Shown: positions 32,418 to 57,792 of the stretch, in pieces
Numbering within the stretch: position 1 is the first letter of the stretch
How the letters are laid out: the number at the start of each line of letters is the position of its first letter
Assembly (NCBI GenBank): GCA_017410325.1
Contig: JAFQRA010000004.1
Span: forward strand, 1-64,000
Source: Clostridia bacterium
GTDB taxonomy: Bacteria; Bacillota; Clostridia; Oscillospirales; Acutalibacteraceae
Reading direction: 5' to 3'
DNA: 64,000 nt
Position numbers and translations under genes: made by a program
Notes under the pieces: generated by a model
What the model was told of the DNA's origin: nothing
The model's input: only the letters and a program-made list of their open reading frames with translations
Databases searched by the model: none

Positions 32418-33802
32418 ACGAAAAGAAAGACCGCTCAAAGCTTGTTTTCGGCGCAATAATTGTTGTGCTTTGTGTTTTCTTTGTTGTCGGTGTTGTTTAC
32501 GGTGCCAACAGTCTGCTTGAAATGGAGGGCACTCTTGAGCCCGCAGACAAATACGTTCTTGACGGATATGCTCAGGTGCCCGATTCGCCTCAAGGAGTTA
32601 TTGAGCTTGTTAATAATGCCGTTTCCGCCGCTGTCGAAGCCAAGCCGAAGCTTGAGTCATCAGACAGTATCAGCATCGGCGATGAGCTTATTATCGGCGA
32701 AGACGGTGCTTCTGCCGTAAATACCGTTGCAAAATTCCTTAAGGATAATGCTGCAGATGAGTTTGCCGCTTCCTTTGCGGATTTATCTGCTGATTTCGGT
32801 GTCGGATTTGCAGACAAGCTTTGGATTCCTCAGCTTACTGCCGCCGATATTGAAAGCTTTGAAATAAAGTATATTTACTATCACTGTATGCAGTGCGGTG
32901 CCGATGCGGATGAAACCTACGAAAAATGCTCCGAGTGCGGAAACGAAAACGGCCCCCAGATGAGATACCGTGACGAGTACAGCATTACCCTCAACCTTGC
33001 ACAGGGTGCTGCCGCACTGGAAAACAATTTCCGTCTGCGTGAGCCTTCTCAGGTAAACGAGTTTGTCGGGGATAAGTTCTCATCCTTTGCAAATATTTCC
33101 GCTCCGATTAATTTTGAATATAAAAATGCACGCATTTTTGTGCGCATTAACCGCCACACGGGTCAGCTTCTTGAAATCAAGTATATCAAGGATGTTGATG
33201 TCACAGCAAAGGCTGAATTCGTAGGGGATTATGCTTATGCAGGTGAGGCGGATGTTTATCTGCCCGTTTGCGAAGAAGTAGGCTTTTGGTTTACGTGGCC
33301 CGGTGTTTCACTTTCAGCCAAAGAGCTTTCAATGGCTTATAAATCAACTGAGGCTCTCAAAGCTACTCTTACCTGTGATGACCCGTTGCTTTACGATGTG
33401 ACATGGACCAGCTCGGATGAGAATATCGCTACGGTGGATGCCGACGGTTATGTAAACAGTAACAAGGTCGACGGAAAGGTTATCATTACAGCCAGCTATG
33501 AATTCCAGGGTAAAACCTATACCGATGAATGCGAGGTTTTTGTCAAGACCTCTGTTGAAAGTATTGATATTACCAAGCGTGACCTCACTCTTAAGAAGGG
33601 TGAAACCTTTGCACAGAGCGTAACCTATTCACCCAAGGATTCAACCGTACAGACCGCAAAATGGTACACGACTGACGAAAGCGTTGCAACTGTTGATGAA
33701 AACGGTGTGATTACCGCAGTCGGTGCCGGTACGGCGGATATATATGCCGTTTCGGATGACGGATACTATAAAGCAACCTGTAATGTGGAGGTGACCGAAT
33801 AA
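32414..33802 (+). CDS. Membrane-anchored protein with zinc ribbon and two Ig-like (Big_2) domains
   Basis: A 462-residue protein. One N-terminal helix (about 14-33) anchors it, with the rest outside by topology. About residues 155-175 contain a second zinc ribbon, CMQCGADADETYEKCSECG. The last 170 residues carry two bacterial Ig-like domains: TWTSSDENIATVDADGYV and KWYTTDESVATVDENGVI are the diagnostic strands. Big_2 domains are common in surface adhesins. It overlaps the upstream zinc-ribbon gene by 4 bp and the GPH transporter by 1 bp, so all three are translationally coupled. The role is unknown. Confidence 0.72.
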   Translation: MNEKKDRSKLVFGAIIVVLCVFFVVGVVYGANSLLEMEGTLEPADKYVLDGYAQVPDSPQGVIELVNNAVSAAVEAKPKLESSDSISIGDELIIGEDGASAVNTVAKFLKDNAADEFAASFADLSADFGVGFADKLWIPQLTAADIESFEIKYIYYHCMQCGADADETYEKCSECGNENGPQMRYRDEYSITLNLAQGAAALENNFRLREPSQVNEFVGDKFSSFANISAPINFEYKNARIFVRINRHTGQLLEIKYIKDVDVTAKAEFVGDYAYAGEADVYLPVCEEVGFWFTWPGVSLSAKELSMAYKSTEALKATLTCDDPLLYDVTWTSSDENIATVDADGYVNSNKVDGKVIITASYEFQGKTYTDECEVFVKTSVESIDITKRDLTLKKGETFAQSVTYSPKDSTVQTAKWYTTDESVATVDENGVITAVGAGTADIYAVSDDGYYKATCNVEVTE

Positions 33803-35409
33803 TGGCAGAGCCCGTAAAAAGAAACATATCTGACCGTATATTTGGTGCGGAAGAACACGCCGCCGCCAGAATCGAAGGTCAGAAACTCAATAAATACAGC
33901 GACATTGCCGTTAAAATGTTCCATACTCAGGTGCTTACGGCAAAGGAAATGTCTTTCCCCGCAATCGGCGAATTTGCAAGCCGTCTGCTCAGCGGTATTA
34001 CATATTACAGAACGCTTTATTTTGTCAACGTTCTGCGAATTGATATGGTTTACGTTACCGCAATGCTCACTCTTATCAGTATTTACGACGTTGTCAACAA
34101 TCCTCTTATGGGTATGGTTTACGACAGAACCCGTACCCGCTGGGGCAAGGCACGTCCGTGGATTGCGTTCTCCGCAATTCCTTATTTCCTGAGCACGGCG
34201 CTGCTGTATTCCGGTGCGCTGTTCTTCGGCGATTCGGCAGGTAATGACCCGAAGAAGATAATGTTCGTATTCCTTACAATGTTTGCGCAGGAAACGTTTT
34301 CAACCATTTATACTATTCCGCGTAACAATATGACAACCCTTATGTCACCCAACCCGAAGGACAGAATTTCCGTCGGACTTCTCAACACGTATATCGGTGA
34401 ACTGGGCGCACAAATTGTTTACATTGTTTTCCTTCCTCTTATGGAACTGAACAACAAGGGTATTATCAATTTCCCGATGTCGATGGTATTCGCAGTTATT
34501 TCCTGTATTACTTCAACACTCGGCTGTGCAAGTAATATTGCCATGGCAATCGGCTGTAAAGAGCGAATTCTTCTTCAGCCCAAGCCGGCACCCATCACAA
34601 AGTCGATGTTCTACGTTCTCAAGAACAAGTATGCCCGCAGAAACTTTATTGCAAACTTTGCCACAAGCTGGTGGAGCAGCGGCGGTTACTCATGGGACGT
34701 TGTTACGCAGATGGAAATCTTCGGCGGTACGCTTTATTCCTTCCTTGCATACCTGCCGTATAACATTTTCGACAGCCTGAGTATTACGTTTATCCCGAAA
34801 TTCCAGAAGATATTCAAGGGCAATAACAAGAATGCGGTTATCGTCCTGCGTTTGTGGGATGCCATCAGTGCTCTCATAATGGCACTTCTCGGCTTCAAGT
34901 TTGTTGACAACCGCTGGGCTATGGTTGGCATTTACGGCTTGTTCTATGGCCTTGAGGGCGTTAACAACGGCCCTGCAAATGTTTTCGAGGGTGAGTTGGG
35001 CCGTGAAATAAACGACTATACCGAGTATATGACAGGTGAGCGTCCCGACGGTACCTTCAATATTCTTACCGACCTTATCACAAAGGTTACTTCTCCCATC
35101 AATGCCTGGCTTACCGTTAAAATTTTCAAATGGTCAGGCTATGATACGACAATTCCCATGCTTCCCTGGTCGCAGGGCAGTAAGGCGATTTATCAGAAGG
35201 TTTTCTTCCTGTTTGTAGGTATCAATCTGCTTCCGCACTTTATTAAGATTATTCCTTATTTCTTCTATGACCTTACAGGCGAGAAGAGAGAAAAGATGTA
35301 CATTGCTCTTAACGAGCGCCGTGCTCTTATTGCCAAGGAAGACGAAATGAATAAGGATATTGAAAATCTTATCGAGACCCTCGGTAAGGAAGAAACTGCA
35401 CAGGCTTAA
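33802..35409 (+). CDS. GPH-family sugar:cation symporter
   Basis: A 535-residue MFS-type carrier of the glycoside-pentoside-hexuronide family, with about 12 hydrophobic segments. The family signature after helix 2-3 reads YDRTRTRWGKARPWI. The N-terminal 40 residues and C-terminal 50 are hydrophilic. It starts on the stop of the Ig-like protein gene (TAATG) and is 15 bp upstream of the glycosidase-like gene, which suggests that it takes up the product or substrate of that enzyme. The sugar specificity cannot be read. Confidence 0.85.
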   Translation: MAEPVKRNISDRIFGAEEHAAARIEGQKLNKYSDIAVKMFHTQVLTAKEMSFPAIGEFASRLLSGITYYRTLYFVNVLRIDMVYVTAMLTLISIYDVVNNPLMGMVYDRTRTRWGKARPWIAFSAIPYFLSTALLYSGALFFGDSAGNDPKKIMFVFLTMFAQETFSTIYTIPRNNMTTLMSPNPKDRISVGLLNTYIGELGAQIVYIVFLPLMELNNKGIINFPMSMVFAVISCITSTLGCASNIAMAIGCKERILLQPKPAPITKSMFYVLKNKYARRNFIANFATSWWSSGGYSWDVVTQMEIFGGTLYSFLAYLPYNIFDSLSITFIPKFQKIFKGNNKNAVIVLRLWDAISALIMALLGFKFVDNRWAMVGIYGLFYGLEGVNNGPANVFEGELGREINDYTEYMTGERPDGTFNILTDLITKVTSPINAWLTVKIFKWSGYDTTIPMLPWSQGSKAIYQKVFFLFVGINLLPHFIKIIPYFFYDLTGEKREKMYIALNERRALIAKEDEMNKDIENLIETLGKEETAQA

Positions 35410-35424
35410 TTCAGAGGTATTTAT

Positions 35425-37629
35425 ATGGCTTATATCAGGGATAAAAGAGAAGAACGCACAGGCTATCAGGCCGGTGACGATTTTTACAATAAGCTTGATT
35501 TGCAATGTGATTTTGTAATGTGTTACCGCCTAAACGAGTCAATTGAAAAGCGCATAGGCGAATACACGGAAAGAGGCTATGTTGCCCATATGATGACGGG
35601 TATTGCCTGGGGCAGCTACGTTGACTATATCTATGAGGGTAAGTGGGACGGCAGAACTCACGAGGATGAAACCCAGCTTGACCGTTACGGCAACGAAATC
35701 GTTCACGGCTATCAGACTCCGTATATGGTACCCACCGTATCTTTTGCTGACTATTTGACCGAAAACCTCAAAAGGGTAGTTGATGCGGGTGCGGTTGCAA
35801 TACACGTTGAGGAGCCCGAATTCTGGGACAGAGGCGGCTATTCCGAAGCCTTCAAGCGTGAATATCTGCTCTACTACAAGCAGGAGTGGCAGCCGCCTCA
35901 CGAAAGCCTTGACAACCGTTATAAATGCGCAAAGCTCAAGGCGTATCTTTATAAAAGAACGATTGAGCGTGTTAGCTGTGCGCTGAAAGAATATGCACTT
36001 ACAAAATATAACCGTGTGCTTCGCTTCTATGTCCCTACACACAGTCTGCTTAACTATACTCAATGGAAAATTATGAGCCCCGAGGGTATGCTTGCCCAGC
36101 TTCCCTCGGTGGACGGTTTCATTGCACAGGTGTGGACAGGTACTTCCCGCGAGCCCAACTGCTTTGAGGGTAAAATCAAGGAGCGTACCTTTGAAACCGC
36201 TTATCTTGAATATTCCGTTATGCAGGAGCTTGTAAAGTGTACCGATAAAACGATGTGGTTTTTACACGACCCCATTGAGGATAACCCGATTTTTGATTGG
36301 AACGATTACAGATATAACTATCTTAAAACTGTAACAGCTTCACTTCTTCATCCTAAAATTAATCAATATGAAATCTGTCCGTGGCCCAACAGAGTGCTGA
36401 CAAACAAGTATCCAAAGGATGCACCCGATGCCGTAACGATTCCGCCTGAATATGAAACACTGCTCAACGGAGTTTTCCAGACGCTTGGCGATATGGAATG
36501 TGCCGAGCCCGATTGTGATTTGCAGGTTGGTGTTCTCATCAGCGATACGGCACTTTATCAGCGCGATTATCCTGATAATGTGCTTGCACCTGCCGCTGAG
36601 GAAGTCGGCACCGTGCTTCGTGAAGGCGAAGACGAGCTACGGGCTTTTGAAAACGAACTATTCAAAGGTAAAGGCACAAGGGAGCAACAGCTTAAGTTCA
36701 TAAAGAGCAATGCTTTTCCGTCTTTCTACGGCCTTAGTCTGCCGCTGCTCAAATACGGAATGCCCGTGCGCTCCGTGCTGCTTGATAACACAAACAGATA
36801 TACCGGCTATCTTGATGACTGTGATGTTCTGGTGCTCAGCTACGAATTTATGAAGCCCGATTACCCGAATGTCAACAACGCCATTGCCTCTTGGGTGCGT
36901 GAGGGCGGTACGTTGATTTACGTCGGTGACGGAAGTGACCCGTACCACGGTATTAACAGCTGGTGGACGGGCAAGTATTCTTCGCCTGCTCAGCATCTTT
37001 TTAAAGTTCTCGGTATTGAGCCACGGAATGAACAGGATGTATTTACTGTCGGTGACGGCAAGGTATACACGTGGAAAAAGAATCCTGCCGAGCTTTGCTA
37101 TTCAAAGCAGCAGGCAGACGAATACAGAAAGCTGTTCAGATCTGCCGCCGCAGAGAAGGGCTATAACTGGTGCGAAAAGAACAGCATCATTCAGAAAAGA
37201 GGCACTTATATCGCTGCGGCAGTATTCGACGAAAGTGTAAATGATAATCCGCTTGAGCTTGAAGGCTGCTTTGCAGATATGTTCACGGAGAGATTTGAGC
37301 TTACCGAAAAAAAGGTTATAAAGCCCGATGAAAACGCGCTTCTGTACGATTTGTCGCTGATAGACAGCGAAACTCTCCGAGTAATCGGTACGTGCGTGCG
37401 TGTGTTTGAAATGTCGGAAGCTGACGGAAAGGTCAGCCTTAAGGTTCACGGCGGATACGATTATGATGCGTATATGCGAATAAGAGTACCGTTTGCGGTG
37501 AAAGCTGCAACGGCAAAGCTTTCAGACGGAACCGATGTTGATATTTCCTGCGAGTACGATACAGCTTCAAGAACCGTTCTTCTCAGCTTCAGAAGTATGG
37601 CAGAAGATATATTTATAACTTTATCTTGA
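35425..37629 (+). CDS. Glycosidase-like protein of no recognised family
   Basis: A 734-residue protein I do not recognise from a named GH family. The architecture resembles GH42-type enzymes: residues about 20-345 look like a TIM barrel with an acidic pair in HVEEPEFWDRGG (about 127-138) and DYRYNYLKT; residues about 365-560 are a Rossmann-like trimerisation fold (LVLSYEFMKPDYPNV, WVREGGTLIYVGDG); the last 120 residues are a beta domain. No signal peptide, so it acts inside, on an imported sugar. It is 15 bp after the GPH transporter and overlaps the next gene, a metallophosphoesterase. Substrate unknown. Confidence 0.6.
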   Translation: MAYIRDKREERTGYQAGDDFYNKLDLQCDFVMCYRLNESIEKRIGEYTERGYVAHMMTGIAWGSYVDYIYEGKWDGRTHEDETQLDRYGNEIVHGYQTPYMVPTVSFADYLTENLKRVVDAGAVAIHVEEPEFWDRGGYSEAFKREYLLYYKQEWQPPHESLDNRYKCAKLKAYLYKRTIERVSCALKEYALTKYNRVLRFYVPTHSLLNYTQWKIMSPEGMLAQLPSVDGFIAQVWTGTSREPNCFEGKIKERTFETAYLEYSVMQELVKCTDKTMWFLHDPIEDNPIFDWNDYRYNYLKTVTASLLHPKINQYEICPWPNRVLTNKYPKDAPDAVTIPPEYETLLNGVFQTLGDMECAEPDCDLQVGVLISDTALYQRDYPDNVLAPAAEEVGTVLREGEDELRAFENELFKGKGTREQQLKFIKSNAFPSFYGLSLPLLKYGMPVRSVLLDNTNRYTGYLDDCDVLVLSYEFMKPDYPNVNNAIASWVREGGTLIYVGDGSDPYHGINSWWTGKYSSPAQHLFKVLGIEPRNEQDVFTVGDGKVYTWKKNPAELCYSKQQADEYRKLFRSAAAEKGYNWCEKNSIIQKRGTYIAAAVFDESVNDNPLELEGCFADMFTERFELTEKKVIKPDENALLYDLSLIDSETLRVIGTCVRVFEMSEADGKVSLKVHGGYDYDAYMRIRVPFAVKAATAKLSDGTDVDISCEYDTASRTVLLSFRSMAEDIFITLS

Positions 37630-37640
37630 CGGAGCAAGCA

Positions 37641-38810
37641 ATGAAAACTATAATATCTATATTCTTGTGTACAATTATGTCTGTTTTTTCAGTAAGCACA
37701 GTAAGCGTGAATTCGGAAGGATATGAAAAAATGACGGGTCTTTCTCAGGCGATTAACGCTTTGATTCATAAGAATGAAATTATGAATACAGATTACGTCG
37801 GAGAGGTAAGCACCGAGGTCTTTGACCCGGCTGCCGAATACCGCCTTGAGGATACATCTGTTGTTATTAAAGAGAAAGATAAGGATTTTGTTATTCTTAA
37901 TCTTACCGATATTCACGTTTCGGATTATGATTACCGAGCCTTTACGGCTTTTGAAGCTTTTGCAACCGCCAAAAGACTCGTCAAGGAAGTAAACCCGGAT
38001 TTGATTACCGTTACGGGCGATATCGTCTGTACGGATTCAACTGTTTACGCGGTCAAGCGCGTTACCGATTTTATGGACAGCCTTGGCGTGCCCTGGGCAC
38101 CGATTTTCGGCAATCACGACGGTGAGGGCAACTGTGACCTGAATTATTTGGCCGATATTATGCTTAACAGTAAGCTTTGCCTTCTTAAAAAGGGGGATCC
38201 GAGAATGGGCTGCGGCAACTATGTTGTGAATGTTGCTGAGCAGAATGATGACGGGTCGCTGAATGTTGTCGAATCGCTTATATTTATGGACACGCACCGC
38301 TCACATGTTAACGAATTGCAGGTTGAGTGGTATAAGTGGGCGGCCGAGGGCGTAGAGAAGGTTTGCGGTAAATCTGTTCAGACAAGTGCCTGGATGCATA
38401 TACCTATGGCTGATTATCAGTATGCCTATGACCTTGCCTGGGACAGCAATAATAACCGCTGGAACGAAGGCTGTTTTGCTTACGGCGAGAAGAATGAAAA
38501 AATCTGCTGCCACCGTGATTCGGAAGGTAATCCGATTGATAACGGTCTTTTTGCGGCTATGAAACAGGTCGGAAGCACTGATTTTGTTTTCTGCGGACAT
38601 GAGCATATGAATAATTTTTCTGTTCTTTACGACGCTATCCGCCTTACATACACTATGAAAATAGGTATAGCTTCCGGATATCAGCCAGGCTTTGACGGCG
38701 GCACCGTAGTTACTGTATCGGATAATGGAATAATTTCTATTGTACATAAAACAAGCTCCTTGCTGTCCTTCAAGGATCTTGAAATTATAAACACAACTCA
38801 GGAGGTATAA
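37641..38810 (+). CDS. Exported calcineurin-like metallophosphoesterase
   Basis: A 389-residue protein with an N-terminal signal peptide (about residues 1-24). The binuclear metal site is clear: NLTDIHVSDY (D, H), TGDIVCTD (GD), IFGNHDGEGN (GNHD) and FCGHEHMNNF (GHEH). The catalytic domain resembles purple acid phosphatase-like (PhoD/YkuE) enzymes. The start at 37641 follows ACGGAG and overlaps the gap-free end of the upstream gene. It is followed 6 bp later by a second metallophosphoesterase. Confidence 0.82.
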   Translation: MKTIISIFLCTIMSVFSVSTVSVNSEGYEKMTGLSQAINALIHKNEIMNTDYVGEVSTEVFDPAAEYRLEDTSVVIKEKDKDFVILNLTDIHVSDYDYRAFTAFEAFATAKRLVKEVNPDLITVTGDIVCTDSTVYAVKRVTDFMDSLGVPWAPIFGNHDGEGNCDLNYLADIMLNSKLCLLKKGDPRMGCGNYVVNVAEQNDDGSLNVVESLIFMDTHRSHVNELQVEWYKWAAEGVEKVCGKSVQTSAWMHIPMADYQYAYDLAWDSNNNRWNEGCFAYGEKNEKICCHRDSEGNPIDNGLFAAMKQVGSTDFVFCGHEHMNNFSVLYDAIRLTYTMKIGIASGYQPGFDGGTVVTVSDNGIISIVHKTSSLLSFKDLEIINTTQEV

Positions 38811-38816
38811 ACTTTT

Positions 38817-39785
38817 ATGACATTCATCATTAAGCTTTTTTCTTCAATAGTGGCGGCACTTATGGCTTCTTTGCCGATTTTGAGTCCGCTTGCGCCTTCA
38901 CCCTTTGAGGCAAAAGAGGAGGGTATACTCCTTAACGCTTCAATAATTTCAGATACTCACCTTGACGTTGCTTTTTCACCTCTTGCCTGGTTTATGGGCA
39001 TTGGTCTGAGAGATATGGGTAACGCCAAAACACCTGTTGACGTTGTCGTTGTTTCGGGTGACCTTACCAACTACGGCGATGAAGAATCAATTGACCAGTT
39101 CTTTTCTACATTAGATAAGAATTGGGACGGTAACGTTGTAATCTCGATGGGTAACCACGATATCGGCCACGTTGAAGAAAAAACTCATGAAGAAGCGAGA
39201 CAGTATTTTGTAGACAAGTTCAACGCACATACAGGTCTCGGTATTGAGAAATCATACTACAGCACTCAAATCAACGGCTACAAGTTTATTGTTCTTACCG
39301 ATGAATCCGACGATTCGTGGGACCATCCCGACCTTTACGAGGAACAGCTCAATTTCCTTGACGCTGAATTGGCGGCAGCAGCTAACGGTGAAGACCCCGT
39401 GTTTGTTATCAGCCATTGGCCGCTTGCAGGTACACACGGCGAAGAAACTGTTTGGGATGACGGCGATATGGATGAGCCCTATTCATCACAGGTAAGAGCA
39501 ATTCTTGAAAAGTATGAGAACGTTTTCTTCATCAGCGGTCATCTTCATCTCGGCCTCAACGGTAATTTTACCCGTGAAGAATTCGGCGTTTCAAGCATTG
39601 AGACACAGAACGGCGTTCACTATGTAAATCTTCCCTCCTACGGTCTTTTAAGCCGTTACGGTACGCTTCTCGGCGGCCGCGGCTATCAGATGGAGGTATA
39701 TGAAAACCACGTTCTTTTCAGAGCAAGAAATTATGTAACACACAATTGGTTTGACCTCTACGAAACGGATATTCCTCTCGTATAA
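38817..39785 (+). CDS. Exported metallophosphoesterase
   Basis: A 322-residue protein with a signal-like N terminus (hydrophobic about 4-20). The full calcineurin-fold set is present: ISDTHLDVAF, VSGDLTNYGDEE, MGNHDIGH, VISHWPLAGTHGEE and ISGHLHLG. The substrate could be a sugar phosphate, nucleotide or phospholipid. AGGAGGT precedes the ATG. It is the second of two adjacent metallophosphoesterases, suggesting phosphate release at the cell surface alongside the sugar genes. Confidence 0.85.
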   Translation: MTFIIKLFSSIVAALMASLPILSPLAPSPFEAKEEGILLNASIISDTHLDVAFSPLAWFMGIGLRDMGNAKTPVDVVVVSGDLTNYGDEESIDQFFSTLDKNWDGNVVISMGNHDIGHVEEKTHEEARQYFVDKFNAHTGLGIEKSYYSTQINGYKFIVLTDESDDSWDHPDLYEEQLNFLDAELAAAANGEDPVFVISHWPLAGTHGEETVWDDGDMDEPYSSQVRAILEKYENVFFISGHLHLGLNGNFTREEFGVSSIETQNGVHYVNLPSYGLLSRYGTLLGGRGYQMEVYENHVLFRARNYVTHNWFDLYETDIPLV

Positions 39786-42620: not shown

Positions 42621-43826
42621 ATGAAAACTTACGGTACATATTTTCAGAATGATAAAGATTTACCCGTGAAATACGGCGAAATAAATCTTATTAATCCCGA
42701 AAGGCAAAGGCTTCGCGGTGAGCCATTGCACAAGGGAATTGCGGCTTATCCTGTTTTTCAGGGCTTTTGCGGCACCGATTACGAGCTTATGAAAATGGGC
42801 CGTGACGGCAGGCTTGGCGCTAAATTTCCCGAGGGCGAAAACAGGCTGATAAACGGACACGAGGGTGTTGTATGGGTGCCCGATAAAAACCGTTTTGCGA
42901 TTGTGCTTATCCGCGGCGGTGACAGCTTTGACCCGACGAGATATACCGAAGACGAAACTTATTTTGAATACGGCTGCGACGGTGCAGACGGTCTTTTCTG
43001 CGATAAGAACTATTTTAATCCCGATATGCTTCTTCATCTGCCCGAAAAATATGAGGGTATAAAAAAACTGCCTTTGTCGGTAGCTAAAAGGCTTTCCTTT
43101 GCCGACCCGTATGCCTGTGCCGTATTTCAGCTGGAGCGTATGGAGGACCTTGGCGAGGCACAGAATTTCCGCGTTGAAATGGCGAAAAGAAAGTGTTCCG
43201 AAGCCGAGGCAAGGGCTGCAGCCAAAAGTTCAATATTCGAAAAAACGGTTGTCTTCGGGCTTGGTATGACGGGTTTGTTTATTGCTGACCAGATAAGAAG
43301 AAACCACCCCGATGCAAAAATTATCTTTGTCGGCAGAAGTGATGAAGCAAGTAAAAAGGTTGTTTTTTCAAAAGAGATAACGGGTGCGGATTATCTTTGC
43401 ACGGCAAATCTCAGCGAAGAAGAAACCGCGCAAAAATTAACCGAAATGCTCGGCGGCAGAGCAACAATGTTTATCGGCACGAGCGGCACCGACGTTGAAC
43501 ACCGAATAGCCTTTGAGCACAGGGTTCTGGGCTGTAACGGAATTTATAACAGCTTTTCTCTGGGCCCTAAGGTACAGTACGATACTATGCCCTTTGGGTT
43601 TGAAAACCACTTGATTTTTGCTTCGATAAATTTCAGGCAGTCACACATGGAAAAGGCTATAGAAATTCTTGTTGACAGCCGTTTTGACGAGGTTGTTGAG
43701 CTTATTGACAAAGAAGAATTTACAAGCAATCCGCTTTATGCTTACGAAAACAAAATTTACTGCAAGGGTGCGCCGCTTAAAACAGGTGTAATCTGGAACA
43801 AAGAATATATTGACGAGGAAAATTAA
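42621..43826 (+). CDS. Glucose-dehydrogenase-like MDR sugar oxidoreductase
   Basis: A 401-residue medium-chain dehydrogenase. Catalytic-zinc residues lie in FCGTDYELMKMG (Cys) and INGHEGVVWV (His-Glu). The Rossmann motif is VVFGLGMTGLFIADQI. The long C-terminal region and the CGTDxE start match the glucose dehydrogenase (GlcDH) branch, which oxidises aldoses at C1 to lactones. There is no structural zinc lobe. The ATG at 42621 follows GGTG; in-frame TTG and GTG codons lie just upstream. It is the first gene of the operon, 1 bp from the next gene. The expected product is an aldonolactone; the sugar is inferred as L-galactose from the genes that follow. Confidence 0.75.
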   Translation: MKTYGTYFQNDKDLPVKYGEINLINPERQRLRGEPLHKGIAAYPVFQGFCGTDYELMKMGRDGRLGAKFPEGENRLINGHEGVVWVPDKNRFAIVLIRGGDSFDPTRYTEDETYFEYGCDGADGLFCDKNYFNPDMLLHLPEKYEGIKKLPLSVAKRLSFADPYACAVFQLERMEDLGEAQNFRVEMAKRKCSEAEARAAAKSSIFEKTVVFGLGMTGLFIADQIRRNHPDAKIIFVGRSDEASKKVVFSKEITGADYLCTANLSEEETAQKLTEMLGGRATMFIGTSGTDVEHRIAFEHRVLGCNGIYNSFSLGPKVQYDTMPFGFENHLIFASINFRQSHMEKAIEILVDSRFDEVVELIDKEEFTSNPLYAYENKIYCKGAPLKTGVIWNKEYIDEEN

Positions 43827-43827
43827 A

Positions 43828-44847
43828 ATGAAAGCAATTGTTATTCCAAATCCCAATGAAATTGAAATCAGAGATATTCCGATGCCCGAGGTAAAGCAAG
43901 GCGAGGCACTTCTTAAGGTTAAATATGTCGGTATCTGCGGTGCGGACGTTGCCTCCTTTACCGGCAATCAGCCCTTTACCACTTATCCGAGAATACCGGG
44001 TCACGAGTTTTCGGCCGAAATCGTAACAATTCCCGAAAACGACAAAGGCTTGAAACCGGGGGATATCGTTACCTGTAATCCGTATTTCAACTGCGGCGAA
44101 TGCTATTCCTGTAAGCGCGGTTTTGTCAACTGCTGTACCGATAATCAGACTATGGGTGTCCAGCGTGACGGTGCTTTCTGTGAATACATATCCATGCCTG
44201 TCGAAAGAATATACCCCGGTATGGGTCTTTCCGCAAAGGAGCTTGCCCTTATTGAGCCGTTTTCAATTTCACAGCACGCCGTATCGCGTGCCGAAATAAA
44301 AGAAAGTGATACTGTGCTTGTTATCGGTGCAGGCCCTATAGGTTTGTTTGCCCTGCTTGCGGCAAAGCAGAAGTGCAAAAAAATTGCTGTAGCCGATATT
44401 CTTGACAACCGTCTTGCTTTGGCTACTGAGTACGGTGCCGATGCAGTTGTCAACACAAAAACTAAATCGCGTGAAGAATTTACAAAAGAATTTACCGACG
44501 GCAACGGCTTTGACGTTTGCATTGAAGCCTGCGGTGCGCCTGAAACCTTCCTTGGCTGTATTGACAGTGCTGCTTTTGCGGCAAATATAATTCTTATCGG
44601 TAACGGTAAAAGAGAAACGAATTTCGTTCATTCCGTTGTTCTTAAAAAGGAGCTTAATATTCACGGCAGCCGAAATGCGCTGAAAGCGGATTTTATCAGC
44701 AACATTGAGCTTGTCGCTTCGGGTAAGGCTGACGTAATGAAAATGGTAAGCGGTGTGTATGATATGTCGGATGCGCTGGATGCCTTCAGAGCTCTTGCAA
44801 ATAACGACGGTACGCTTGCAAAACTACTTATTAAAATCGGTGACTGA
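43828..44847 (+). CDS. Zinc alcohol dehydrogenase, possible L-galactonate 5-dehydrogenase
   Basis: A 339-residue medium-chain zinc dehydrogenase. Catalytic zinc: VGICGADVAS (Cys) and GHEFSAE (His-Glu). Structural zinc lobe: NCGECYSCKRGFVNCC with four Cys. The NAD motif is VIGAGPIGLFALL. It belongs with the polyol/galactitol-phosphate and L-galactonate dehydrogenases (RspB/YjjN type). GAGG sits at the end of the upstream gene. Just 1 bp separates it from the tagaturonate reductase, which points to oxidation of an aldonate such as L-galactonate to tagaturonate. The specificity is inference from context. Confidence 0.78.
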   Translation: MKAIVIPNPNEIEIRDIPMPEVKQGEALLKVKYVGICGADVASFTGNQPFTTYPRIPGHEFSAEIVTIPENDKGLKPGDIVTCNPYFNCGECYSCKRGFVNCCTDNQTMGVQRDGAFCEYISMPVERIYPGMGLSAKELALIEPFSISQHAVSRAEIKESDTVLVIGAGPIGLFALLAAKQKCKKIAVADILDNRLALATEYGADAVVNTKTKSREEFTKEFTDGNGFDVCIEACGAPETFLGCIDSAAFAANIILIGNGKRETNFVHSVVLKKELNIHGSRNALKADFISNIELVASGKADVMKMVSGVYDMSDALDAFRALANNDGTLAKLLIKIGD

Positions 44848-44848
44848 T

Positions 44849-46165
44849 ATGAAAGAAACGGTAATTCAATTCGGCGAAGGTAATTTCCTGCGCGGCTTTT
44901 TCGATTATTTCCTGGATAAACTGAATAAAAACGGGCTTTACGACGGCAAGGCGGTTATTGTTCAGCCCAGAGCAGGCGGCAGGGTTGCAGACCTGACAGA
45001 ACAGGACTGTAAATATAACCTTTATCTTCGCGGATTGGTAAACGGTGAAGTAAAATGTGAGCACAGCCTCATTGAGTCGATATCACGCTGTGTAGACCCG
45101 TATAAAAGCTTTGAGGATTATCTTGCACTGGCAGATAATCCGGATTTCCGTTTTGTAATTTCAAACACTACAGAAGCGGGAATTGAGTTTGACCCGTGCT
45201 GTCATTTTTCGGACATGCCGTGTAAATCTTTCCCGGGAAAACTTACACAGCTTCTTTACAGACGTTATAAAAACGGCCTGAACGGATTTGTATTTCTGCC
45301 TTGCGAACTGATTGACAATAACGGTGATGAACTTAAAAAATGTGTTCTTAAATATGCTGAGCACTGGGAGCTTGAAGAAGAATTCACGGCTTGGATAATA
45401 AATAATAACACTTTTGCAAATACTCTTGTCGACCGTATTGTTACGGGTTATCCCAACGATGAAACAGCCGAAAAGCATACTGAAGACAAGTACCTCGATA
45501 CTGCAGAAATTTTTCATCTGTGGGTAATTGAAGGTAATTTCGAAAATGAATTACCCCTTCAAAAAGCAGGCTTCAACGTTATTTGGGCCGAAGATGTAAA
45601 GCCCTACAAAAAAATCAAGGTCAGAATACTTAACGGTGCCCATACTTCGCTTGTTGCGGGTGCGCTCTTATCGGGCGTTGAAACGGTGGGTGAAGCTATG
45701 GCGGATGAGACTTGTTTTGCGTTTCTTGAAAGCATTATGAATAATGAAATACTGCCGACAATAGGTGAAACGCAGGAGAGCAGAGCTTTTGCGGCAAGTG
45801 TTATTGACCGCTTTAAGAATCCGTTTATTCAGCACAAGTGGCGTTCAATTGCGCTTAATTCTGTCAGTAAATTTTCTGTTCGCGTTTTGCCGACAATACT
45901 TGAATATAAAGAAAAATTCGGTGTATATCCGAAAGGTCTAACTCTTGCGTTGTCATACCTGATTTATTTTTATAAAAATGATTTTCCCGAAGATAATGAA
46001 CGGGCGGTTGAAACAATGAAAAATGAAAGTGTTGAGGATATACTGAAAAATACCGCGTTGTGGCAAGCGGATATTTCCGACCTTACTCAAACGGTAAATT
46101 ATTATTATGAGAAAATCGAAGCACTCGGTGCAAAGGAAGCAATGAAATGGATACTGTCAGAATAA
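44849..46165 (+). CDS. uxaB: Tagaturonate reductase (mannitol dehydrogenase family)
   Basis: A 438-residue polyol dehydrogenase. The opening VIQFGEGNFLRGFFDYFLDK is the UxaB-type NAD-binding stretch. The catalytic region KIKVRILNGAHTSLVAGALL holds the conserved Lys and NGxH. It is shorter than E. coli UxaB (483). By family it reduces D-tagaturonate to D-altronate with NADH. The start at 44849 is 1 bp after the stop of the zinc dehydrogenase; a longer upstream frame exists without support. It overlaps altronate dehydratase by 19 bp, so the two are coupled. Confidence 0.85.
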   Translation: MKETVIQFGEGNFLRGFFDYFLDKLNKNGLYDGKAVIVQPRAGGRVADLTEQDCKYNLYLRGLVNGEVKCEHSLIESISRCVDPYKSFEDYLALADNPDFRFVISNTTEAGIEFDPCCHFSDMPCKSFPGKLTQLLYRRYKNGLNGFVFLPCELIDNNGDELKKCVLKYAEHWELEEEFTAWIINNNTFANTLVDRIVTGYPNDETAEKHTEDKYLDTAEIFHLWVIEGNFENELPLQKAGFNVIWAEDVKPYKKIKVRILNGAHTSLVAGALLSGVETVGEAMADETCFAFLESIMNNEILPTIGETQESRAFAASVIDRFKNPFIQHKWRSIALNSVSKFSVRVLPTILEYKEKFGVYPKGLTLALSYLIYFYKNDFPEDNERAVETMKNESVEDILKNTALWQADISDLTQTVNYYYEKIEALGAKEAMKWILSE

Positions 46166-47520
46166 GCAGTAAGGACAACGTATGTGTTGATCTTTCAAAC
46201 GGCCATAAAATCGCTGTGTGCGACATTCAAACGGGTAAAGATATAGTTAAATACGGTTTTTCTATCGGCATTGCAACCAAAGATATATCCGAGGGAGAGC
46301 TTGTACATTCCCACAATATGAAAACCAAACTCGGTGATATTCTTTCCTATGAATATTCGCCTGAGCTTACACCGCTGACTTCAAAAAAGCCGTTTACGGT
46401 TAACGCTTACATACGCGAAAACGGTGATATCGGAATAAGAAACGATATCTGGATAATTCCTACTGTAGGCTGTGTAAACAGTGCGGCAAAGGCCTTGAGC
46501 GAAAAAACGGGTGCAATCAGCTTTTCGCATCCTTACGGGTGCAGTCAGCTTGGTGACGATATGAGAATAACTCAGCTTATTCTCAAAGGCCTTATCAAAC
46601 ACCCCAATGCAGGCGGTGTGCTTGTGCTCGGGCTCGGCTGTGAAAACAATAACATTGACGAGATGAAAAAAATTCTCGGAAAAATTAACGATGACAGAGT
46701 GAAGTTTTTGTCCGTTCAGTCTTGCGGCAATGAGATTGAAGAGGGAATAAAGCTCATAGAAGAACTAAAGCGCAACGCGGCAAACGATACCCGCGTGGCT
46801 GTAGATGCTTCAAAACTTAAAATCGGTCTCAAATGCGGCGGCTCTGACGGCTTTTCTGGTATTACCGCAAACGCAGTAGTCGGACTTGTTACGGATGAAA
46901 TCTGTGCTATGGGCGGTACTGCCGTGCTTACCGAGGTGCCCGAAATGTTCGGCGCGGAAACCGTGCTTTTTGACCGTTGTGTCAGCAGAGAGGTTTTTGA
47001 TAAAAGCGTAAAGCTGATTAATGATTTCAAGCAGTATTTCAAAAATCACGGTCAGCCTGTCTCGGAAAACCCTTCACCAGGTAATAAAGAGGGCGGAATA
47101 ACCACGCTTGAAGAAAAGTCTCTCGGCTGTGTCCAAAAGGGGGGTACGGCTCCCGTGGTTGACGTTCTTGACTATGGTGAAGCCGCGGTAAAGCCGGGCT
47201 TGAATTTGCTCAACGGACCCGGAAACGACATTGTTTCCGTAACAAATTTAGCTGCTTGCGGCTGTCATCTCGTGCTGTTTACAACCGGCAGAGGAACACC
47301 CCTTGGCGGTGCCGTGCCTACGGTAAAAATCGCCTCAAACGATATGATAGCAAGCAATAAACCTCATTGGATTGATTTTTCCGCTTTTGGTTCGGATAAA
47401 AATCAGAAAGCCGAAGAGCTGTTGAAGCTGATTCAGCGTATATGTGACGGCGAGCCTGCAAAGAACGAAACACTCGGCAACAGAGAAATTGCAATTTTTA
47501 AAGACGGAGTAACGTTATGA
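46147..47520 (+). CDS. uxaA: Altronate dehydratase
   Basis: A 457-residue enzyme that dehydrates D-altronate to 2-keto-3-deoxy-D-gluconate. Residues 1-85 are the SAF-type N-terminal domain, which contains VHSHNMKTKLGD. The C-terminal GD_AH domain carries GIRNDIWIIPTVGCVN, FSHPYGCSQLGDD, LKCGGSDGFSGITANAVVG and GLNLLNGPGND. Conserved Cys and His for the iron site are present. Slightly shorter than E. coli UxaA (495). It overlaps uxaB by 19 bp and the amidohydrolase by 4 bp. Confidence 0.9.
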   Translation: MDTVRISSKDNVCVDLSNGHKIAVCDIQTGKDIVKYGFSIGIATKDISEGELVHSHNMKTKLGDILSYEYSPELTPLTSKKPFTVNAYIRENGDIGIRNDIWIIPTVGCVNSAAKALSEKTGAISFSHPYGCSQLGDDMRITQLILKGLIKHPNAGGVLVLGLGCENNNIDEMKKILGKINDDRVKFLSVQSCGNEIEEGIKLIEELKRNAANDTRVAVDASKLKIGLKCGGSDGFSGITANAVVGLVTDEICAMGGTAVLTEVPEMFGAETVLFDRCVSREVFDKSVKLINDFKQYFKNHGQPVSENPSPGNKEGGITTLEEKSLGCVQKGGTAPVVDVLDYGEAAVKPGLNLLNGPGNDIVSVTNLAACGCHLVLFTTGRGTPLGGAVPTVKIASNDMIASNKPHWIDFSAFGSDKNQKAEELLKLIQRICDGEPAKNETLGNREIAIFKDGVTL

Positions 47521-48383
47521 TTATTGATGCACACGCACACCTGTGGAAAAAACAGAACGGCATTGTCAACGGCAGTCCCGTATTCGATATCGGCGGCGGT
47601 AAGAGTAATTTCGGCGGCGAAATACGACAAATGATGCCTCCCTTTATGACCGACGGAGAAAATACCGTTGAAAGATTTCTGGCAAATATGGATTACGCAG
47701 GTGTCAGCGGCGCCGTAATTACCCAGGAGTATATTGACGGTAATCAGGACGAATATCTGCTTTCCTGCAAGAGCGACAGAATTAAAATCTGTGTATTATA
47801 TGAAGAAAAACCGCTCGGAAGCATAAGCGGCTTTGACGGCGTTAAAATTTGTGCAGGCCGACTTACTGATAAAAATCTGCTCAATCATCTTGAGCCGTTC
47901 AGAGCTGCAAACGATATGGGCAAATTTATTTCAATTGACCTTGCTGACGGTGCCGAGCAAACAGAAATGGTGCATAAAATAGCCCGTATGTTTCCCGAAC
48001 TTAAAATTGCCGTGGGTCATTTCGGAATGGTTACCCGCAGCGGTTGGACGGAACAAATCAGACTAGCGGAAAATAAAAATGTTTTTATTGAAAGCGGAGG
48101 TATAACCTGGCTTTTCAACGCTGAATTCTATCCGTATCCGTCGGCTGTCAGCGCAATCAGAACAGCGGCTGATATGGTCGGTTATGAAAAACTGATGTGG
48201 GGCAGCGACTATCCCAGAACAATGACTGCAATAACATATAAGATGAGTCTTGATTTCGTTGAGAAAACAAACGAGATTTCTGAAAAAGATAAACTGTTGT
48301 TCCTCGGTGAAAACGCAAGGTGCTTTTACGGATTTGCAAATATTCCTGTTCCGGAAAAGGTCAGAAATATAGTCGAGGATTAA
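47517..48383 (+). CDS. Amidohydrolase-superfamily lactonase
   Basis: A 288-residue TIM-barrel protein of the Amidohydrolase_2 group. The metal and substrate motifs are DAHAHLW (HxH, residues 4-7), a His in AVGHFGMVTRSGWT and the final Asp in MWGSDYPRTM. The DxHxHLW start and WGSDYPR end are those of cog3618-type sugar lactonases. It closes the lactone opening missing from this operon: aldonolactone made by the first gene would be hydrolysed to aldonate. It overlaps altronate dehydratase by 4 bp (ATGA). The GH3 gene follows 43 bp later. Confidence 0.78.
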   Translation: MIIDAHAHLWKKQNGIVNGSPVFDIGGGKSNFGGEIRQMMPPFMTDGENTVERFLANMDYAGVSGAVITQEYIDGNQDEYLLSCKSDRIKICVLYEEKPLGSISGFDGVKICAGRLTDKNLLNHLEPFRAANDMGKFISIDLADGAEQTEMVHKIARMFPELKIAVGHFGMVTRSGWTEQIRLAENKNVFIESGGITWLFNAEFYPYPSAVSAIRTAADMVGYEKLMWGSDYPRTMTAITYKMSLDFVEKTNEISEKDKLLFLGENARCFYGFANIPVPEKVRNIVED

Positions 48384-48426: not shown

Positions 48427-50826
48427 ATGAAAATTATTTCGAAAGCGCTGGGCTTTGTTGCCCGTAAAATAAACTCACTTGCACAGGCTCAGGGTACAGG
48501 CTTTGCCGAAGGCGAGGTTACCCTCGGTATGCCCGAACTTGTAAGTGCCGCCGCGGCGGAAGGTGCCGTCTTGCTCAAAAATAACGGTGTTCTTCCTATT
48601 AGTAAAAACGAAAGAGTTTCTCTCTTCGGAAGAATTCAGGTCAATACGTTTTTTGTCGGTTACGGTTCGGGCGGCGACGTAAGCGCACCGTACAGGGTCA
48701 GTTATCTTGACGGTATAAGGAACTGTGAGAGCATTACTCTGAATACCGAGCTTGCCGATATTTACACAAAATGGTGTGAAGAAAACCCCGTTTTCGACTC
48801 AGTCTGGGGTATGTGGCCGCGTTTCCTGCCTGAAATGCCGCTTGACGAAAAAACTGTTAAATCCGCGGCGCAAAACTCCGATGCGGCCGTTGTTTTTATC
48901 GGCAGGTCATCGGGTGAGGACAGAGAAAACATTCTCAAAAAGGGCAGTTATTACCTGACTGTTGAAGAGCTCGATATGCTCCGCAAGGTAACGGCCGAAT
49001 TCAAAAAGGTTGCGGTTGTACTCAACATAGGCTGTGTTATGGACTTTTCACAGCTTTGTGAATTCGGCGATAAAATAGGTGCAATTCTTATTGCCTGGCA
49101 GGGCGGTATGGAAAGCGGCAATGCTCTGGCAGATTTGCTTTGCGGTAAGGCTTCACCCTGCGGAAAGCTGACTGATACAATCGCAAAGAGCTATGCCGAT
49201 TATCCGAGCAGTAATAATTTCGGAAACAAGAAATTCAATAATTATGAAGAGGATATTTTTGTCGGCTACCGTTACTTTTCCACATTCGGTGGGGATAAAG
49301 TGCTGTACCCCTTTGGTTTCGGCCTGGGATATGCGGAATTCGATGTTGAGTGCATATCGGTAAATATCGGCAAAGAAAACACGGATGTTACGGTAAGAGT
49401 TACAAATTATTCCGAAAAATACTGCGGCAAAGAGGTTGTGCAGGTCTATTACGGTGCGGAAAATACTGCGCTTGCAAAGCCCGGCAAACAGCTTGTCGGC
49501 TTTGCAAAAACTAAGCTTCTTGCTCCCGGCGAGGAGCAGGAATTGGTTATTTCCTATTCGAATAATGCCTATGCTTCTTACGATGATTCGGGCATAACGG
49601 GCTGCAGAAATGCCTGGGTGCAGGAAAAGGGTAAATATAAAATTTATGTCGGTACCGATGCGGTTTCGGCTTGCGAATATTCCGGCTTTGAGAGCGAAAC
49701 AAAACTTATTGAACAGCTTACACAGTGCTCTGCTCCCGCCGAACTTTTTGACAGAATTGACGGCCTTGACAAGTCAAAGTCTCCCGTAACGGTAAATAAA
49801 AAGGATATCAGAGCTTTAATCAAAAGTAATATTCCGTCAGATATTGCTTTGACGGGTGATAGGGGCTATAAGCTCAGCGATGTAAAATCGGGCAAGGTAC
49901 CGCTTGACGATTTTGTTGCACAACTTAGCCTTGACGAGCTTGAAGCAATAAGCCGAGGCGATTACAGAATGAACAGCCCCTTGGGTGCACTCGGTAACGC
50001 AGGTGTTCTGGGCGGAGTTCTGCCTTCACTGCGGGAAAAGGGTGTGCGTCCGGTTACAACAACGGACGGTCCTTCGGGTATCAGATTGAAGGCCAGTTGT
50101 TCTCTTCTGCCCATAGGCACACTTCTTGCTTGCTCGTGGAATGAAGAGCTGGTGGAAAGCTTATATACTCTTGTCGGCAAGGAGATGCTTGACAGGGGTT
50201 CTGATGTGTTGCTTGCACCGGGTATGAATATTCACAGAAATCCCTTATGCGGCAGAAATTTTGAATATTTCAGCGAAGACCCACTGGTCAGCGGTAAAAT
50301 TGCCGCCGCAGTTGTAAGAGGGATACAGTCAAGCGGTTTAAGTGCCTGTCCGAAGCACTTTGCCTGTAATAATCAGGAGACAAACCGCTGTTACAACGAT
50401 TCAAGAGTAAGTGAAAGAGCACTGCGTGAGATTTATCTCAAGGGCTTTGAAATTTGCGTAAAAGAAGCAAAGCCCAAGTGTATTATGACTTCTTACAATA
50501 AGATAAACGGCGTCTGGGGACACTATAACTATGAGCTTTGTGAATCCGTTCTTCGCAGAGAATGGGGTTATGAGGGTATGGTTATGACCGACTGGTGGAT
50601 GAGAAAAAGCAGGAGTCCCGAGTTTGCGTCGGTACGCAATAACGGCTACCGTGTTCGTGCGGGCGTTGACGTGCTTATGCCGGGCGGCGGCAGAACTTCA
50701 AAGCAAAAGCCTGACGGTACCTTGCTTGAAACCTACGGAAAGCCCGACGGTATAGCTTTGGGTGAAATGCAGCGCACGGCAAAGAATGTTTTGGGACTCG
50801 TTCTCAATCTTCCTGAAGAAGATTGA
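48427..50826 (+). CDS. GH3 glycosidase with permuted domain order
   Basis: A 799-residue intracellular GH3 enzyme. The usual C-terminal sandwich comes first (about residues 30-270, with AAEGAVLLKNNGVLPI, VVFIGRSSGEDRE), then a fibronectin III-like domain (about 300-430, KEVVQVYYGAEN), then the catalytic barrel (about 495-795) with TTDGPSGIRLKA, CPKHFACNNQE and nucleophile Asp near 720 in MVMTDWWMRKS. This reversed order is known in a minority of rumen GH3 enzymes. No signal peptide. It follows the lactonase by 43 bp and a GGGG-type ribosome binding site; the WYL regulator follows it. Confidence 0.85.
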   Translation: MKIISKALGFVARKINSLAQAQGTGFAEGEVTLGMPELVSAAAAEGAVLLKNNGVLPISKNERVSLFGRIQVNTFFVGYGSGGDVSAPYRVSYLDGIRNCESITLNTELADIYTKWCEENPVFDSVWGMWPRFLPEMPLDEKTVKSAAQNSDAAVVFIGRSSGEDRENILKKGSYYLTVEELDMLRKVTAEFKKVAVVLNIGCVMDFSQLCEFGDKIGAILIAWQGGMESGNALADLLCGKASPCGKLTDTIAKSYADYPSSNNFGNKKFNNYEEDIFVGYRYFSTFGGDKVLYPFGFGLGYAEFDVECISVNIGKENTDVTVRVTNYSEKYCGKEVVQVYYGAENTALAKPGKQLVGFAKTKLLAPGEEQELVISYSNNAYASYDDSGITGCRNAWVQEKGKYKIYVGTDAVSACEYSGFESETKLIEQLTQCSAPAELFDRIDGLDKSKSPVTVNKKDIRALIKSNIPSDIALTGDRGYKLSDVKSGKVPLDDFVAQLSLDELEAISRGDYRMNSPLGALGNAGVLGGVLPSLREKGVRPVTTTDGPSGIRLKASCSLLPIGTLLACSWNEELVESLYTLVGKEMLDRGSDVLLAPGMNIHRNPLCGRNFEYFSEDPLVSGKIAAAVVRGIQSSGLSACPKHFACNNQETNRCYNDSRVSERALREIYLKGFEICVKEAKPKCIMTSYNKINGVWGHYNYELCESVLRREWGYEGMVMTDWWMRKSRSPEFASVRNNGYRVRAGVDVLMPGGGRTSKQKPDGTLLETYGKPDGIALGEMQRTAKNVLGLVLNLPEED

Positions 50827-57318: not shown

Positions 57319-57728
57319 TAAAAGCAGCTTTTCTGTCTGCACGGTGAAAAGAGTCTGTTTTTTATAAAGAATGAAAGCAGAACGGCAGGAATGCTCAGAA
57401 GAAACCAAATCACACAGAATAACGGGCATATCTGTCCGAGGATATGCCCCGGCCTTTGGGAATAGTCCCACACGTTCATATGAAGCTTTCTGTTTACAAT
57501 ACAGCCTACAATAAATTCAAGAGCAGTAATGATTCCGCATCCCGACAGACAGCGGATGAAAAGTCCCTTTGCTTTAATACGAAAGCTTGTTATATAAATC
57601 AAAAGATATGCAAGGCCTCCCGTAAGTGCCATTGTCCAATGCGTGAATCCACGAAATGCTATTTCAATTCCGCTGTACAATACGGCACCAAGGCAGTAAA
57701 TGAACGAATATTCTTTAAGCTTTTTCAA
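57300..57728 (-). CDS. CmpB-like (putative ABC-transporter type IV) membrane protein
   Basis: A 142-residue multipass protein with four hydrophobic segments. The segment NVWDYSQRPGHILGQICPLF and the following WFLLSIPAVLLSFF match the conserved end of the PF06541 family (ABC_trans_CmpB), whose function is unproven. The start is probably TTG at 57728, with AGGTGATA upstream; an in-frame TTG five codons earlier is less likely. Its 3' end overlaps the amidase gene by 19 bp on the opposite strand, and no terminator separates them. Confidence 0.75.
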   Translation of the reverse strand: MKKLKEYSFIYCLGAVLYSGIEIAFRGFTHWTMALTGGLAYLLIYITSFRIKAKGLFIRCLSGCGIITALEFIVGCIVNRKLHMNVWDYSQRPGHILGQICPLFCVIWFLLSIPAVLLSFFIKNRLFSPCRQKSCFYQLFLK

Positions 57729-57792
57729 TATTATCACCTGCAAGTATTCTTGCCGGAAACACCTAGATTTAATCTTACAGGGGAACAGTTTT

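Follow-up and report, generated by a model that had tools for sequence, protein, structure and literature searches.

The window analysed here, a 64,000-nucleotide stretch of the genome of a Clostridia bacterium, carries five adjacent genes (positions 42621-48383) that, judged by sequence, probably constitute a cytoplasmic operon for the catabolism of L-galactose. The pathway would be a known one in altered form, its first enzyme apparently having been replaced by an unrelated one. With somewhat less confidence, we consider it likely that the first gene belongs to a second family of L-galactose 1-dehydrogenases with an independent origin, a lineage of medium-chain dehydrogenases/reductases (MDR) that is barely recognisable with Pfam and occurs in uncultured Clostridia, many of them from herbivore guts. 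It would take the place of the aldo/keto reductase (AKR) in a Bacteroides-like pathway and would provide these bacteria with a pathway dedicated to L-galactose derived from plant walls such as grass xylan. A first-pass annotation of the window had proposed a route from L-galactose to 2-keto-3-deoxygluconate (KDG). This assignment now goes further than family names, because the amidohydrolase and the zinc-dependent dehydrogenase (ZnDH) resemble those of a Bacteroides finegoldii cluster, UxaB and UxaA are true to type, and genes of the GH29, GH95 and FucU types are found near relatives of the operon. The host had been called a Clostridium, which should read Clostridia: the nearest records are metagenome-assembled genomes (MAGs) named 'Clostridia bacterium'.

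Operon organisation and conservation

The operon comprises the following genes:
42621-43826, plus strand: MDR-type aldose 1-dehydrogenase, proposed NADP-dependent L-galactose dehydrogenase, 401 aa (PF16912, sub-threshold)
43828-44847, plus strand: ZnDH, proposed NAD-dependent L-galactonate 5-dehydrogenase, 339 aa (zinc MDR of the LgoD/RspB kind)
44849-46165, plus strand: UxaB, tagaturonate reductase, 438 aa (NF002969, above cut-off)
46147-47520, plus strand: UxaA, altronate dehydratase, 457 aa (PF20629/PF04295)
47517-48383, plus strand: amidohydrolase, proposed L-galactono-1,5-lactonase, 288 aa (PF04909, Amidohydro_2)

The window lies on contig C39 of a 2.67-Mb assembly (39 contigs, 96.11% complete, 0 contamination). 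All five open reading frames are intact, start with ATG and lack internal stops. Their spacing (1 bp, 1 bp, a 19-bp overlap and a 4-bp overlap in order, with a GH3 gene 43 bp further on) confirms the earlier description of five tightly linked genes that overlap or lie 1 bp apart. The GC profile is flat over the operon. Promoter-like sites (23, against 14.2 ± 3.4 in shuffled sequence, with matches of at most 9 of 12 positions on the plus strand just 5' of the MDR gene) and terminator-like sites (11, against 9.5 ± 2.3) were not used.

A species-genome collection yielded 295 candidate stretches, 245 of which encode relatives of the MDR protein, and the best 80 of these 245 were kept as loci. Gene calls were crude, with 69 of the 80 MDRs recovered, and locus counts were therefore taken from six-frame profiles. 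By their titles, the 80 loci come from MAGs or binned, uncultured genomes, or from the CAG:678 scaffold, and 40 of these titles mention sheep, goat, yak, cattle, buffalo or deer. The arrangement is not due to chance, since both ZnDH and amidohydrolase are present in 57 of the 60 loci that have at least 5 kb downstream of the MDR gene. Among the 79 loci that leave at least 300 bp for a next gene, 73 have the ZnDH directly after the MDR. Within 7 kb, UxaB and UxaA are both found in 36 of the 57 loci, one of them in 4, and neither in 17. The MDR is present in 2 of 59 relatives, the window's own genome included, and at E ≤ 1e-20 in a single one of 391 genomes drawn from the class, again its own.

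Genome-level searches covered 50 of the 80 loci, picked by hand, and the window's own genome, 51 in all, and UxaA was present in 49 of these. Of the 50 genomes, 24 were classed as lacking UxaA in the operon, and the remaining 26 formed the other group. UxaA is encoded elsewhere in 22 of the 24, the misses being the genomes of L058 and L084; L080, sorted among the 26, likewise has UxaA outside an operon that lacks it and would raise the count to 23 of 25. Two of the 24, L083 and L084, carry UxaB ∼5.6 kb downstream. Where a strong MDR match is lacking, UxaA occurs in 131 of 390 class genomes and in 6 of 57 relatives. Fisher tests of the 22 of 24 against these two sets gave p = 1.4e-8 and 2.3e-12, values that are uncorrected for relatedness and subject to gaps in the MAGs.

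In a comparison of 15 genomes, 13 whose kinship is not told have MDRs 67-86% identical to that of the window and UxaCs 49-69% identical, while the congener L005 has values of 94.8% and 97.4%; the row of L033 was left out (41.2% there, 79% by tblastn). In the 13, the higher identity of MDR than of UxaC hints at horizontal transfer or strong constraint.

Likeness to a Bacteroides cluster

A tblastn search of plasmid records with the amidohydrolase matched 40 records, and among those listed one is close and the other 14 are 22-25% identical. The close match, 56% identical over 99% of the length, is in Bacteroides finegoldii (NZ_OY725933), where the neighbourhood consists of a LacI regulator, an aldo/keto reductase, the amidohydrolase, FucP and a zinc-binding alcohol dehydrogenase. 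The match agrees with the earlier suggestion of a cog3618-type lactonase as in the Bacteroides route. The ZnDH of the window shares 41.5% identity with its B. finegoldii counterpart, compared with 36% for LgoD and 34% for RspB; before this cluster was found, identity to LgoD and RspB alone had been indecisive for its assignment. The B. finegoldii protein is the best of the three references for all 68 ZnDHs recovered from the 80 loci, and all 64 recovered amidohydrolases match the B. finegoldii one at 46-60%. Both proteins are thus nearest, among the references compared, to a Bacteroides L-galactose-type cluster, the reference being the B. finegoldii proteins in place of the Phocaeicola vulgatus (P. 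vulgatus) BVU sequences themselves.

Hobbs et al. are said to have described in 2014 BVU_0219 of P. vulgatus as an AKR and BVU_0220 as the lactonase. The four-gene order in B. finegoldii fits that of BVU_0219-0222. In the available text of PMC12632266, BVU_0219 is a known L-galactose dehydrogenase and BVU_0222 the L-galactonate dehydrogenase. Identity alone does not prove the substrate of the ZnDH, and L-galactonate is its presumed one. Residues C37/H59/E60/E143 and C89/C92/C95/C103 of the ZnDH are invariant in 14 sequences, and H6, H8, H168 and D231 of the amidohydrolase in 34.

UxaB, UxaA and the likely exit to KDG

UxaB scores 519 bits against NF002969 (cut-off 359), and its identity is 41% with E. 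coli UxaB and 25% with UxuB. For UxaA, the figures are 51% with E. coli UxaA and 27% with GarD, the latter for the compared part. The two proteins are the genome's only matches to Mannitol_dh_C and GD_AH_C, respectively. Since both are true to type, the pathway is likely to leave through D-tagaturonate and D-altronate to KDG. L-galactonate is the aldonate that gives D-tagaturonate by oxidation at C5 and needs inversion at C5 to give altronate. In the closest relative, L005, the UxaA frame appears split in two pieces (L005:13527-14890), either a broken gene or an assembly error.

The genes for the further steps lie elsewhere in the genome. Contig C2 carries uxuA, a short-chain dehydrogenase/reductase (SDR) mannonate oxidoreductase and kdgA, each above its curated cut-off, and a PfkB kinase that is nearest to KDG-kinase models, below their cut-offs, and is the likely kdgK.

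The proposed first enzyme

The window MDR scores 20.1 bits against PF16912, the glucose dehydrogenase family, under the curated cut-off of 34.9, and has no NCBIfam match. PF16912 is matched at E ≤ 0.1 by 32 of 35 family members, and a profile built from 35 relatives finds the glucose dehydrogenase PDB 2cd9 (E 0.00055). The protein had earlier been described as a glucose-dehydrogenase-like MDR, and it proves to be a divergent one. C50, H80, E81 and G213/G215/G218 are invariant across 35 relatives; from family knowledge, we take these to be the catalytic Cys/His-Glu and the nucleotide motif. Profile comparison aligns the nucleotide-binding halves of MDR and ZnDH (68% probability, E 4.7e-5) and places Asp190 of the ZnDH, of the NAD type, against Gly238 of the MDR, which is followed by an invariant Arg239 and a near-invariant Ser240. 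This alignment, read with general family knowledge, suggests NADP as cofactor of the MDR and NAD as that of the ZnDH. A matching NADP/NAD partition is reported for LguA and LguD in the available text of PMC12632266.

No relative of the B. finegoldii AKR was found in the window (tblastn, E ≤ 1e-3) or in the 80 loci (E ≤ 1e-10), whole genomes not being searched for AKRs, and FucP permease relatives were likewise absent at 1e-3 and 1e-10. The MDR therefore seems to stand where Bacteroides has its AKR. None of the 69 recovered MDRs matches the AKR, and no plasmid record matches the MDR by tblastn at 1e-3. We infer that an AKR L-galactose dehydrogenase was replaced by this MDR; L-galactose as its substrate is the weakest link of the prediction.

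Proposed pathway

In the proposed route, with all substrates and cofactors predicted, the MDR would oxidise L-galactose with NADP+ to L-galactono-1,5-lactone, which the amidohydrolase would open to L-galactonate. The ZnDH would then oxidise C5 with NAD+, yielding D-tagaturonate, UxaB would reduce this to D-altronate, and UxaA would dehydrate D-altronate to KDG. The ZnDH and UxaB steps would jointly invert C5 and be redox-neutral if UxaB uses NADH. KdgK and KdgA of contig C2 could convert KDG to pyruvate and glyceraldehyde-3-phosphate.

We take CX, a complex xylan, to be corn xylan. The available text of PMC4491172 reports that a gut Bacteroides enzyme frees L-galactose from CX. No report of L-galactose use by Clostridia or of such an operon was found among the titles and abstract openings listed by searches of the open-licence PMC literature. 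If the assignment is true, an unannotated MDR family would gain a function and the 245 matching stretches in public genomes a likely pathway, and the lactonase/ZnDH pair would be a marker of L-galactose use across phyla.

Alternative explanations

Several observations weigh against this assignment. The similarity of the MDR to glucose dehydrogenases is distant, and sequence does not reveal its substrate. In three of the 60 loci (L044, L054 and L081), the MDR occurs with neither ZnDH nor amidohydrolase, and the co-occurrence tests carry no correction for relatedness. GH29 and GH95 enzymes, which are found near some relatives of the operon, act on L-fucose too, and neither the window nor the following 19 kb of contig contains a GH29, GH95 or FucU match. 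The genome also has UxaC, so that galacturonate could be used through UxaC, UxaB and UxaA, and the single uxaA of the L032 genome lies ∼3.5 kb from uxaC.

A rival reading that we consider improbable is that the five genes serve mainly as a galacturonate (uxa) operon, UxaC from elsewhere feeding UxaB and UxaA while the MDR, ZnDH and amidohydrolase act on side substrates such as L-galactonate and lactones. The first-pass annotation had argued against galacturonate from the absence of uxaC, kdgK and kdgA in the window. That absence holds (tblastn with the genome's own copies, 1e-5), but the argument drawn from it does not: a search beyond the window, which the annotation had advised, located uxaC on contig C32 and kdgA and the likely kdgK on C2, and galacturonate use is therefore still conceivable. 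The single copies of UxaB and UxaA in the genome fit such a role, and UxaC is present in all 51 genomes examined, including this one. On C32, however, uxaC lies beside LCP, AKR-Fer4 and GT2 genes, unlinked to the operon, and no uxaC-like gene was found in the 80 loci (tblastn, 1e-20). This genome also has a glucuronate branch for UxaC to supply (uxuA and the SDR mannonate oxidoreductase). Within the genus, UxaC occurs in 8 of 11 genomes, this one included, whereas UxaA is confined to the two that bear the MDR; the same-genus genomes are 77-99% complete, and some absences may be gaps. Among 22 genomes with UxaA outside the operon, 21 have uxaA and uxaC on different contigs. The ZnDH and amidohydrolase also remain with the MDR in the 17 loci without UxaB and UxaA within 7 kb. 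Most simply, UxaC would serve mainly glucuronate, and UxaA and UxaB would have arrived with this operon. At L088, uxaC lies among LCP and GT2 genes, and the product of the adjacent gene (L088:9959-11071) combines an aldo/keto reductase with a 4Fe-4S domain in one fused protein.

L-galactose could also be the wrong sugar, the MDR, ZnDH and amidohydrolase acting instead on L-fucose, L-gulose, L-glucose or D-arabinose. GH29, GH95 and FucU are generally best known for L-fucose, RspB-type relatives may act on L-gulonate, and Luteolibacter LguA and LguD also accept L-glucose and L-gluconate (PMC12632266, available text). We regard this as unlikely: by general pathway knowledge, 6-deoxy or pentose acids would not suit UxaB and UxaA, L-gulonate would require UxuB and UxuA, and the nearest relatives of the amidohydrolase and ZnDH belong to the Bacteroides L-galactose-type cluster. 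Slightly less doubtful, though still a minor prospect, is that the MDR is not the first enzyme and has another role, an AKR encoded elsewhere making the lactone. Such an AKR would accord with the weak likeness of the MDR to glucose dehydrogenase and with the nature of the known L-galactose dehydrogenases, which are AKRs. These known enzymes group together in PMC12632266 (available text). The near-constant position of ZnDH directly after the MDR speaks against it, as does the lack of an AKR relative in the window and loci in the search described above.

Comparison with known systems

The L-galactose pathway of P. vulgatus (BVU_0219-0222) is the closest known system. It shares the intermediates and the lower route proposed here, and the window amidohydrolase and ZnDH are close to a B. 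finegoldii cluster of fitting gene order. It differs in its first enzyme, an AKR in place of an MDR, and in its host, a member of the Bacteroidota; the window operon, in turn, includes uxaB-uxaA, and neither the window nor the 80 loci hold FucP. In the available text of PMC12632266, the lgu cluster of Luteolibacter LG18 likewise brings together an aldose dehydrogenase, an aldonate dehydrogenase, a tagaturonate reductase and an altronate dehydratase. There, however, LguA falls into one group with BVU_0219 and GALDH_ARATH, both known L-galactose dehydrogenases, the cluster includes an aldolase, LguE, L-glucose is used via LguG, and the word 'lactonase' is absent from that text.

The lgoTRD and uxa genes of E. 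coli lead from L-galactonate through tagaturonate and altronate to KDG, and LgoD is the 36% relative of the window ZnDH, but no L-galactose dehydrogenase or lactonase is annotated beside lgoD in the stretches examined. A galacturonate uxa operon shares UxaB and UxaA with the window operon, which lacks a linked UxaC. The window MDR has the Cys/His-Glu and nucleotide motif of the glucose dehydrogenase MDRs (PF16912), with a score under the cut-off.

Neighbouring genes

Neighbours were identified with profiles built from the loci, their Pfam families being taken from one representative per profile. Matches below 100 bits were dropped, which reduced GH29 from 18 to 16 loci and GH95 from 11 to 10. 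At this threshold of at least 100 bits, GH29 is present in 16 of the 80 loci, GH95-like genes in 10 and FucU/RbsD-like genes in 6, 28 loci altogether, and the FucU frames start ∼0.4-0.5 kb before the MDR gene. GH29 is enriched: 13 of 50 loci have it, where genome-wide Pfam counts would predict 1.4. GH29 and GH95 both include alpha-L-galactosidases according to the available text of PMC11189522 and PMC4491172, and the neighbourhood therefore fits L-galactose, but it fits L-fucose as well. A Thr/His position in GH95 was considered as an L-galactosidase marker. Thr is present in 6 of 7 linked GH95s, but it is not diagnostic and was dropped because a Thr-bearing fucosidase is reported (PMC8245568; PMC10063614 agrees, both in their available text). 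Some loci also contain GH35, GH2, a GLAA-B-domain protein, AraC regulators and MFS_2 transporters.

In the window, the operon is flanked by GH130, HAD and GH3 genes, all common to L005, and two flanking genes may belong to the system:
48427-50826, plus strand: GH3 glycosidase after the operon, possible member (PF00933/PF01915)
33802-35409, plus strand: MFS_2 sugar transporter upstream of the operon, possible uptake system (PF13347)

Among the 80 loci, the GH3 gene has a 92% identical copy in the same position in L005 and a 42% copy in L030, further off and on the opposite strand. Strong MFS_2 profile matches, of another cluster, lie near the operon in L009, L050, L055 and L075.

Further upstream, the window encodes a 734-aa protein without a Pfam or NCBIfam match (35425-37629), followed by metallophosphoesterases at 37626-38810 and 38817-39785. 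In L051, relatives of the 734-aa protein (46%) and of its metallophosphoesterase (44%) lie near the MDR gene. Metallophosphoesterase-type profile matches, some of them weak, occur in 18 of the 80 loci, in 8 of which they lie ∼1 kb before the MDR gene. A DUF5696 protein is encoded at 57700-60042, ∼9 kb beyond the operon, and a different type of DUF5696 protein lies downstream of the operon in 8 loci (for example L048:8998-10911), with two more weak cases. At 1e-3, the profile from the loci fails to match the copy in the window. The DUF5696 proteins are possibly uncharacterised carbohydrate enzymes.

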